DNA from: Owenia fusiformis
Lineage: Eukaryota > Annelida > Polychaeta > Sabellida > Oweniidae
Assembly: GCA_903813345.2 (NCBI GenBank)
Contig: CAIIXF020000011.1
Span: 33,660,166 to 33,724,165 of the forward strand
Reading direction: 5' to 3'
Length of the DNA: 64,000 bases
The position numbers and the translations under genes were made by a program. How positions within the stretch are numbered: the stretch's first letter is position 1; the number at the start of each line of letters is the position of its first letter. Under the pieces are notes generated by a model. The model ran no database searches and had not been told where the DNA came from. It saw only the letters and a list, made by a program, of their open reading frames with translations. Shown here piece by piece: positions 4,919 through 61,760 of this stretch.

Positions 4919-6478
4919 TAGCCAGAAAACTTATTCTATTCTGCCTACCTTAATTGGCAGATAATTCATTCTATTCTGCCTGCCTTAAATGGTCAGACTA
5001 TTATGCCTACCTTAATAAGCCAGATAATTCATTTTATTCTACCTTCCTTAAATGGTCAGACAACTCATTCGATTATGCCTACCTTAATAAGCCAGATAAT
5101 TCATTCTATTCTGCTTACCTTAAATGGACAGACAGCTCATTCGATTATGCCTACCTTAATAAGCCAGATAATTCATTCTATTCTGCCTACCTTAAATGGT
5201 CAGACAACTCATTTGATTATGCCTACCTTAATAAGCCAGATAATTCATTCTATTCTGCCTACCTTAATAAGCCAGATAATTCATTCTATTATGCCTACCT
5301 TAATAAGCCAGATAATTCATTCTATTCTGCCTACCTTAATTAGCCAGATAACTCATTCTATTATGCCTACCTTAAATGGTCAGACAACTCATTCTATTAT
5401 GCCTACCTTAAATGGTCAGACAACTCATTCTATTATACCTACCATAATAAGCCAGATGATTCATTCTATTCTGCCTACCTTAAATGGTCAGACAACTCAT
5501 TCTATTATACCTACCTTAATAAGCCAGATGATTCATTCTATTCTGCCTATCTTAAATGGTCAGACAACTCATTCTATTATACCTACCTTAAAAATCCAGA
5601 TGATTCATTCTATTCTGCCTACCTTAAATGGTCAGACAACTCATTCTATTATGCCTACCTTAATAAGCCAGATAATTCATTCTATTCTGCCTACCTTAAA
5701 TGGTCAGAATACTCATTCTATTATGCCTACCTTAATAAGCCAGATAATTCATTCTATTCTGCCTACCTTAATTGGTCAGACAACTCATTCTATTATGCCT
5801 ACCTTAATAAGCCAGATGATTCATTCTATTCTGCCTACCTTAATTGGTCAGACAACTCATTCTATTATGCCTACCTTAATAAGCCAGATAATTCATTCTA
5901 TTCTGCCTACCTTAATTGGTCAGACAACTCATTCTATTATGCCTACCTTAATAAGCCAGATAATTCATTGTATTCTGCCTACCTTAATTGGTCAGACAAC
6001 TCATTCTATTATGCCTACCTTAATAAGCCAGATAATTCATTCTATTCTGCTTACCTTAATTGGTCAGACAACTCATTCTATTATGCCTACCTTAATAAGT
6101 CAGATAATTCATTCTATTCTGCCTACCTTAATTAGTCAGACAACTCATTCTATTCTGCCTACCTTAAATGGTCAGACAACGTATTCTATTCTGCCTACCT
6201 TAATTGGTCAGACAACTCATTCTATTATGCCTACCTTAATAAGCCAAATAATTCATTCTATTCTGCCTACCTTAAATGGTCAGACAACTCATTCTATTCT
6301 GCCTACCTTAATTGGTCGGACAACTCATTCTATTATACCTACCTTAATTGGTCAGACAACTCATTCTATTCTGCCTACCTTAAATGGTCAGACAACTCAT
6401 TCTATTCTGCCTACCTTAATAAGCCAGACAACTCATTTTATTCTACCTACATTTTTAGTCAATTTACTCATTCTATTC
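4919..6478. repeat. 36-bp minisatellite with a 72-bp dimeric order
   Basis: About 43 units of 36 bases. Two types alternate over much of the array: one with CTTAATAAGCCAGATAATTC and one with AAATGGTCAGACAACTCAT, giving a 72-bp higher-order unit. Because 36 is a multiple of three and the unit lacks stops in one frame, a spurious 497-codon frame runs through it. Confidence 0.95.
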
Positions 6479-29376: not shown

Positions 29377-29389
29377 ATAAGTCAACTAA

Positions 29390-29771
29390 AACTGAATCAA
29401 TGATGGTTTTGTATTATATGTATTTTCAGAATTCTCAGTTATGAGATAGCACTTTTATGAGAGGCGCATAGGTTGCTGACAGATACCTGAATCAAAAATT
29501 CTGAAGCTGAATTAATGATGATTTTACGTATATTTTCAGAATTCTCAGAGTTATGAGATAGCACTTTTATGAGAGGCGCATATGTTGCTGACAGATACCT
29601 GAATCAATAATTCTGAAACTGAATTAATGGTGATTTTATTTTTGTATATTTTCAGAATTCTCAGAGTTATGAGATAGCACTTTTATGAGAGGCGCATATG
29701 TTGCTGACAGATACCTGAATCAATGATTCTGAAACTGAATTAATGGTGATTTTATTTTTGTATATTTTCAG
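29390..29771 (+). repeat. Three degenerate tandem copies of the exon A acceptor and 5' end
   Basis: The TTTTCAG|AATTCTCAG acceptor-exon junction of exon A occurs four times, with exon-side starts at 29430, 29540, 29656 and the real one at 29772 (spacings 110, 116, 116). Each unit holds about 50 bases of intron end and about 63 bases of exon start. The three copies share changes absent from the exon (CTTTTATGAGAGGCG in place of CTGTTGGGGGAGGCT), which give an in-frame TGA: codon 5 in the first copy through a 2-base loss, codon 11 in the others. Confidence 0.92.
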
Positions 29772-60006
<30,235 letters not shown>

Positions 60007-60240: not shown

Positions 60241-61760
60241 ACATATGACTACGGAAGTGACTACATGATGTAACTACTTGTACATATGTGACTACAACAG
60301 TGGTTCCATGGTGTGAATACATGTATGGTATCATATGTGACTACGTAAATGGCTACATGATATAACTACATATGTGACTACAACAGTGGTTCCATGGTGT
60401 GAATACATGTATGGTATCATATGTGACTACGGAAGTGACTACATGATGTAACTACTTGTACATATGTGACTACAACAGTGGTTCCATGGTGTGAATACAT
60501 GTATGGTATCATATGTGACTACGTAAATGGCTACATGATATAACTACATATGTGACTACAACAGTGGTTCCATGGTGTGAATACATGTATGGTATCATAT
60601 GTGACTACGTAAATGGCTACATGATATAACTACATATGTGACTACAACAGTGGTTCCATGGTGTGAATACATGTATGGTATCATATGTGACTACGTAAAT
60701 GGCTACATGATATAACTACATATGTGACTACAACAGTGGTTCCATGGTGTGAATACATGTATGGTATCATATGTGACTACGTAAATGGCTACATGATATA
60801 ACTACGTATGTGACTACAACAGTGGTTCCATGGTGTGGATACATGTATGGTATCATATGTGACTACGTAAATGGCTACATGATATAACTACATATGTGAC
60901 TACAACAGTGGTTCCATGGTGTGAATACATGTATGGTATCATATGTGACTACGTAAATGGCTACATGATATAACTACGTATGTGACTACAACAGTGGTTC
61001 CATGGTGTGGATACATGTATGGTATCATATGTGACTACGTAAATGGCTACATGATATAACTACATATGTGACTACAACAGTGGTTCCATGGTGTGAATAC
61101 ATGTATGGTATCATATGTGACTACGTAAATGGCTACATGATATAACTACATATGTGACTACAACAGTGGTTCCATGGTGTGAATACATGTATGGTATCAT
61201 ATGTGACTACGTAAATGGCTACATGATATAACTACATATGTGACTACAACAGTGGTTCCATGGTGTGAATACATGTATGGTATCATATGTGACTACGTAA
61301 ATGGCTACATGATATAACTACGTATGTGACTACAACAGTGGTTCCATGGTGTGGATACATGTATGGTATCATATGTGACTACGTAAATGGCTACATGATA
61401 TAACTACATATGTGACTACAACAGTGGTTCCATGGTGTGAATACATGTATGGTATCATATGTGACTACGTAAATGGCTACATGATATAACTACGTATGTG
61501 ACTACAACAGTGGTTCCATGGTGTGGATACATGTATGGTATCATATGTGACTACGTAAATGGCTACATGATATAACTACATATGTGACTACAACAGTGGT
61601 TCCATGGTGTGAATACATGTATGGTATCATATGTGACTACGTAAATGGCTACACGATATAACTACGTATGTGACTACAACAGTGGTTCCATGGTGTGAAT
61701 ACATGTATGGTATCATATGTGACTACGTAAATGGCTACATGATGTGACTACATATGTGCT
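60241..61760. repeat. 86-bp minisatellite following the PDE3 stop codon
   Basis: 17 units, each with TGGTTCCATGGTGTG; starts at 60301, 60387, 60479 and then every 86 bases to 61683. Units 1 and 3 carry a longer GGAAGTGACTACATGATGTA-type version, so the 1-2 pair was duplicated as 3-4. A linked variant (ACGTATG with GTGGAT) marks units 7, 9, 13 and 15, which implies a six-unit (516-bp) higher-order duplication. It begins 235 bases after the TGA and is probably within or next to the 3' UTR. Confidence 0.95.

Follow-up and report, generated by a model that had tools for sequence, protein, structure and literature searches.

In an annelid genome, exon A of a PDE3 gene is preceded by three tandem copies of its own acceptor and start, each with an intact AG and an early stop, and this array is a further instance of the mirage-type minisatellites known from amphioxus. 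We consider it probable that the array is near-neutral, that it has been homogenised by unequal exchange, and that splicing uses the exon-proximal acceptor and takes the decoys as rare noise. Copies of exon edges also occur elsewhere in the same gene and in a sample of unrelated exons, at a rate no higher than that of random flanking positions. The window, that is, the whole 64,000-nt stretch of DNA that was analysed, is G000:C11:33660166-33724165 in a 498-Mb genome, and positions below are counted from its first base.

A tandem array across the start of PDE3 exon A

The array and its parts are as follows, with a slash marking splice junctions in the motifs given here and below:

29389 to 29829, + strand: tandem array, period 116, 3.8 copies; its final unit takes in the first part of PDE3 exon A
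29430 to 29485, + strand: decoy copy 1 of the exon A start; acceptor AG at 29428-29429; two exon bases missing; stop after 4 codons
29540 to 29597, + strand: decoy copy 2 of the exon A start; acceptor AG at 29538-29539; stop after 10 codons
29630 to 29631, + strand: weak donor-like ATG/GTGATT, which could close a 90-nt cassette, 29540-29629
29656 to 29713, + strand: decoy copy 3 of the exon A start; acceptor AG at 29654-29655, scoring the same as the true one; stop after 10 codons
29746 to 29747, + strand: weak donor-like ATG/GTGATT, which could close a 90-nt cassette, 29656-29745
29772 to 30026, + strand: PDE3 exon A, phase 0; true acceptor ends at 29771; donor AAG/GTATCA at 30027

Tandem Repeats Finder reported 29389-29829 as a single array with a score of 691, and a separate repeat search found four copies of 116 nt. 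Exon-type starts lie at 29430, 29540, 29656 and 29772 (spacing 110, 116 and 116), as an earlier sequence-only reading had described in proposing three upstream copies of acceptor and exon start at 110-116 bp; the acceptors that it placed at 29429, 29539, 29655 and 29771 are the right sites, but these are the last intron bases, and the exon starts one base later in each case. In each of the three upstream copies, intron sequence from the acceptor side leads through an intact TTTTCAG into the exon start, so that the AG is kept in 3 of 3, again in line with that reading. The exon A junction aligned to its upstream copy with a score of 161, against a maximum of 28 among 300 dinucleotide shuffles. 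The copied part of the exon measures 58 nt (29772-29829) rather than about 63, and the unit is not anchored exactly on the boundary, as had been claimed, but straddles it, with at least 40 nt of intron aligning together with the 58 nt of exon. An early stop was likewise found in every decoy, although it is not the same stop throughout, since the two bases missing from copy 1 make it stop after 4 codons instead of 10.

Comparison of the copies shows homogenised inner units and a diverged outer one. No difference separates copies 2 and 3 over the 58 exon bases, and the first copy is the most diverged (identities to the reference copy are 83% and 97%). Seven sites distinguish copies 2 and 3 from exon A, six of which are common to copy 1, and four of these six fall at third codon positions, as read from the alignment by eye. 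The earlier suggestion that the copies share substitutions absent from the exon holds for six of the seven sites, but the junction itself departs from it: over the last 40 bases of the intron and the first 26 of exon A there is no difference from copy 3, while the following stretch differs, and 59 of the last 60 intron bases match. The array has thus been homogenised with the true junction, and such a mosaic of identity and difference is what unequal exchange inside the array would be expected to leave. Exon A may have undergone silent changes while one copy acquired the stop.

A word-based search of the 498-Mb genome, skipping very common words, gave no match to the 116-nt unit outside the array, and an origin from a transposon or dispersed satellite was ruled out, the unit being matched at a single genomic place. 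This also bears on whether the copies, or their number, are an error of assembly. One amphioxus mirage appeared to be aberrantly assembled in a draft genome, as reported in PMC3087553, and the exon A array was found at one place in one assembly, with no second haplotype. An artefact is nevertheless highly improbable here, given that the copies differ from each other, that the array has a single genomic location and that such arrays occur at many sampled loci.

The identification of the gene as PDE3, proposed beforehand, was borne out. Exon A matches human PDE3A with E 1.6e-17 and 53% identity, downstream catalytic exons match it as well, and for one catalytic exon the best solved-structure matches are PDE3A and PDE3B. 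About 60 kb upstream, an exon matching the membrane region (E 1.5e-5) has a phase 0 donor, CAG/GTAAGG, that fits the phase 0 start of exon A; the intron upstream of exon A would then span about 60 kb if no small exon has been overlooked in between. Nine bases into exon A, at 29781, a second AG (TTCTCAG/AG; 14th percentile of acceptor score) is a possible in-frame alternative acceptor that would drop three residues. Inside a PDE3 intron, 45790-49551 holds a non-LTR retroelement's open frame of 1254 residues, parts of which resemble an endonuclease and a reverse transcriptase; the motif GDIEPNPGP, close to the start of this frame, resembles a 2A peptide. Five more long minisatellite arrays occur in the window, at 4998-6450, 34993-35533, 37343-38529, 57422-57938 and 60281-61758 (periods 72, 25, 27, 70 and 86, respectively; 7 to 44 copies), all of them in introns or upstream of the exons found.

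A second exon of the gene also carries an upstream copy of its own start:

54880 to 54948, + strand: decayed copy of the PDE3 exon G acceptor and start; 49 of 64 aligned bases identical; no AG at the aligned place
55006 to 55209, + strand: PDE3 exon G, the second PDE3 exon with an upstream copy of its own start

Exons A and G are thus the two with such a copy among the 11 PDE3 exons tested in the window. None of these 11 had a significant downstream copy of its own end, the nearest being that of exon G (p 0.017, uncorrected for the 11 tests).

Boundary duplications in a sample of exons

The frequency of such copies was determined in a sample of 138 exon matches from the same genome, belonging to the PDE, myosin, ABC and P-type ATPase families, in which locus L006 is PDE3 exon G itself. 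For PF00233, 52 of 55 matches were taken, the three left out being other PDE3 exons of the window; for PF00063, 46 of 92 were taken, with 12 from one exon-duplication cluster and 34 more left out; PF00005 (25 of 25) and PF00122 (15 of 15) were taken whole. The exon edges are predicted, not annotated, and an edge was counted as duplicated when its copy beat 400 shuffles with z >6.3 and extended 12 nt or more to each side of the edge. By this measure, duplications were found at 11 of 137 acceptors (L006, L021, L022, L026, L054, L060, which is weak, L072, L079, L109, L132 and L137; the L047 acceptor was not usable) and at 4 of 138 donors (L028, L103, L105 and L115). Altogether 22 edge rows beat the shuffles, and seven of them, failing the z threshold or the requirement to straddle the edge, were not counted (L023 3′, L027 5′, L031 5′, L069 3′, L119 5′, L122 3′ and L137 3′). 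Two called edges, the L021 acceptor (its true position being at 1590) and, by our reading, the L028 donor, lie off the true edge, and both arrays span the true edge. In a test of 58 of the loci there were seven acceptor-side and two donor-side hits, three of which (L004, L007 and L031) are whole-exon duplications. The exon A array as a unique event is ruled out by these cases and by the exon G copy.

Several exons carry more than one decoy, namely L021 (12), L137 (8), and L022 and L109 (5 each), and the decoy counts at L061-L140 are lower bounds, the flanks there being 520 bases. Over 12 junctions, the AG was kept in 40 of 42 copies, its absence being confined to the decayed copies at exon G and L060, and a stop is met before the true acceptor in 34 of the 42 decoys. 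At L021 (192-1647; G000:C1, about 26225743-26227198), an exon that is PDE7-like by motif follows 12 repeats of its acceptor and start, spaced about 112 bp apart; the nearest four are identical to the junction over 83 bases, and every decoy has an AG and leads to a stop. At L022 (1042-1556; G000:C9, about 2255270-2255784), a PDE exon has five upstream copies of an 87-bp unit that are open and in frame, so that a decoy, if used, would lengthen the protein by 29-residue repeats and bring no stop. Whole-exon duplication was seen as well: one part of the myosin head (model positions roughly 18-84) is matched twelve times in series within about 8 kb at G000:C9:37986009-37994334, apparently by a large set of mutually exclusive exons, and two pairs of PDE exons duplicated a few hundred bases apart, L004/L007 (G000:C1:15898836 and 15899438) and L023/L031 (G000:C5:8035371 and 8035821), are candidates for mutually exclusive exons.

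Random flank positions served as background, three per side per locus in 58 loci, with 345 of 348 usable and 200 shuffles for each, as compared with 400 for the edges. These positions, which are not independent of each other, were duplicated in 15 of 174 cases upstream and 15 of 171 downstream. Against them, acceptors were neither enriched nor depleted (Fisher p 1.0), and no excess of duplications at exon starts was found. Donors fell below background (p 0.034; 0.045 and 0.081 after edge filtering), and the comparison of acceptors with donors gave p 0.068. At a stricter score of 52, the counts were 9 of 137 acceptors and 4 of 138 donors, versus 13 of 174 and 14 of 171 background positions. Arrays of period at least 30 make up 8.6% of the window and 8.4% of the sampled flanks, and 1 of the 21 PDE3 edges in the window lies inside one. 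Acceptors are thus duplicated at the background rate, and the finding is therefore what a minisatellite-rich genome yields at exon edges. The view that amplification across an exon boundary is unusual is not supported for this genome, duplicated edges being no more frequent than duplicated random flanks and the class having already been published as mirages.

Choice among the acceptors

Scored with a matrix built from 93 predicted acceptors of the same genome, a rough yardstick because the edges are predicted, the decoy acceptors fall at the 54th, 28th and 82nd percentiles and the true exon A acceptor at the 82nd. The decoys are thus of ordinary strength. Eleven GT sites lie between the decoys and exon A, of which the two ATG/GTGATT sites alone score above 0; their score of 5.1 exceeds that of exon A's own donor (1.2), seven other PDE3 donors scoring 2.8 to 13.5, so that a 90-nt cassette is conceivable.

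These features could be read as a regulated poison switch, in which decoys, used either to lengthen exon A or to begin a 90-nt cassette, would tune the PDE3 level through nonsense-mediated decay. Such a switch would account for the AG, ordinary strength and early stop of all three decoys and for donor-like sites stronger than the exon's own donor. The same structure, however, stands before unrelated exons at the background rate, and the stops come from running into intron sequence, as they do for most decoys at the 12 junctions, which makes a switch very unlikely. Clutter that splicing ignores fits better than a switch, the two readings between which the earlier reading had left the matter.

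The decoys might instead be used at an appreciable constant level, as an unregulated cost, with selection erasing their AGs in time. The classical rule, by which the intron-proximal splice site is favoured and hence upstream acceptors (as set out in PMC9225289), would have this consequence, and the two decayed copies that lack an AG are compatible with it. Acceptor duplications are nevertheless not depleted relative to background, and RT-PCR in amphioxus suggests regular splicing with no interference, as reported in PMC3087553. We regard a burden of this kind as unlikely.

The probable course of events, on the near-neutral minisatellite reading, would be as follows. The minisatellite unit happens to span the intron end and exon start. 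A tandem duplication across the acceptor would have multiplied and, in part, been homogenised with the true junction, unequal exchange or slippage being the probable process; copies left in the intron can diverge, and their AG can be lost, as has happened before exon G. The spliceosome would mostly take the exon-proximal acceptor at 29771. Given the upstream intron of about 60 kb, exon A probably undergoes exon definition, paired with a donor that lies 255 nt away, which would favour the acceptor nearest the donor; use of a decoy would give a stop-containing mRNA, probably as rare noise. In the human transcriptome, intron definition goes with a strong preference for the upstream 3′ site, a preference that is significantly lower with exon definition (PMC9225289). 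This reduction is weaker than what is needed here, and use of the last acceptor does not follow from it by itself; the amphioxus data suggest exon-proximal use as well. The ordinary strength of the decoys (28th-82nd percentile) and the AG in 40 of 42 copies count against the mirage reading to the extent that a functional reading would also predict both.

A single array before a single exon is ordinary in this genome; it is the class that matters, as it makes testable which of several near-identical acceptors splicing uses and what sets the choice. Exons suited to this question, with between 1 and 12 decoys apiece, are available from the sample. We put forward tentatively, and with some doubt, the joint proposal that about 1 in 10 sampled exons has a duplicated splice site, that acceptor copies are not selected against while donor copies may be, and that exon-proximal choice among equal acceptors is nearly errorless. 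If true, such a choice would run contrary to the classical intron-proximal rule, and the genome would offer a natural genome-wide experiment on 3′ splice site choice.

Comparison with known systems

Poison exons are found in genes regulated by nonsense-mediated decay; they bring a premature stop when included, have 3′ and 5′ splice sites of their own, and are conserved and regulated in their inclusion. Alternative splicing would give early stops at the exon A decoys as it does at the poison exons of such genes, but the array, known from the sequence of one genome, shows no sign of regulation or conservation. In Drosophila, intron gain by tandem duplication of exonic sequence has been described (PMC2891723); it likewise involves a regional tandem duplication touching splice sites or proto-splice sites, whereas at exon A an existing acceptor has been copied and no new intron is indicated. 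Human segmental-duplication genes contain internal tandem repeats, likewise minisatellites, that extend across exon-intron boundaries (De Grassi and Ciccarelli 2009, PMC2812944). According to that report, these vary between recent paralogues, affect transcripts and have units of 30 bp on average, while the exon A array concerns a single gene and a 116-bp unit, with decoys probably left in the intron.

The closest counterparts are the amphioxus mirages, minisatellite-like tandem duplications spanning an intron-exon boundary, at either the 3′ or the 5′ splice site, described for Adh3 and the globins BflGb6 and BflGb9 (PMC3087553, PMC3902484), to which PGBD5 and troponin C were added (PMC3902484). 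In these reports, the units measure 10-72 bp (Adh3), 150-160 bp (globin) and 60 and 108 bp (PGBD5), splice signals are present in many copies, units are homogenised while the cluster edge is not, and copy number can differ between two haplotypes (6 versus 3 units); the arrays were also proposed as raw material for intron growth and new introns in the globins (PMC3087553). A literature search of partial coverage found no mirages of this kind outside lancelets, the word elsewhere denoting a transposon family or appearing in a citation title. The exon A array shares with the amphioxus cases a tandem unit lying on the boundary, splice signals kept in its copies and homogenised inner units. It differs from them in its annelid host, and for the class as a whole a frequency was obtained here from sampled exons. 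Three matches above the cut-off to the linker domain PF16915, known from annelids, agree with this host. Duplicated acceptors are frequent in this annelid genome and apparently tolerated, and the added interest lies in the frequency of boundary duplications, in a host that is an annelid rather than amphioxus, and in their undiminished occurrence at acceptors.
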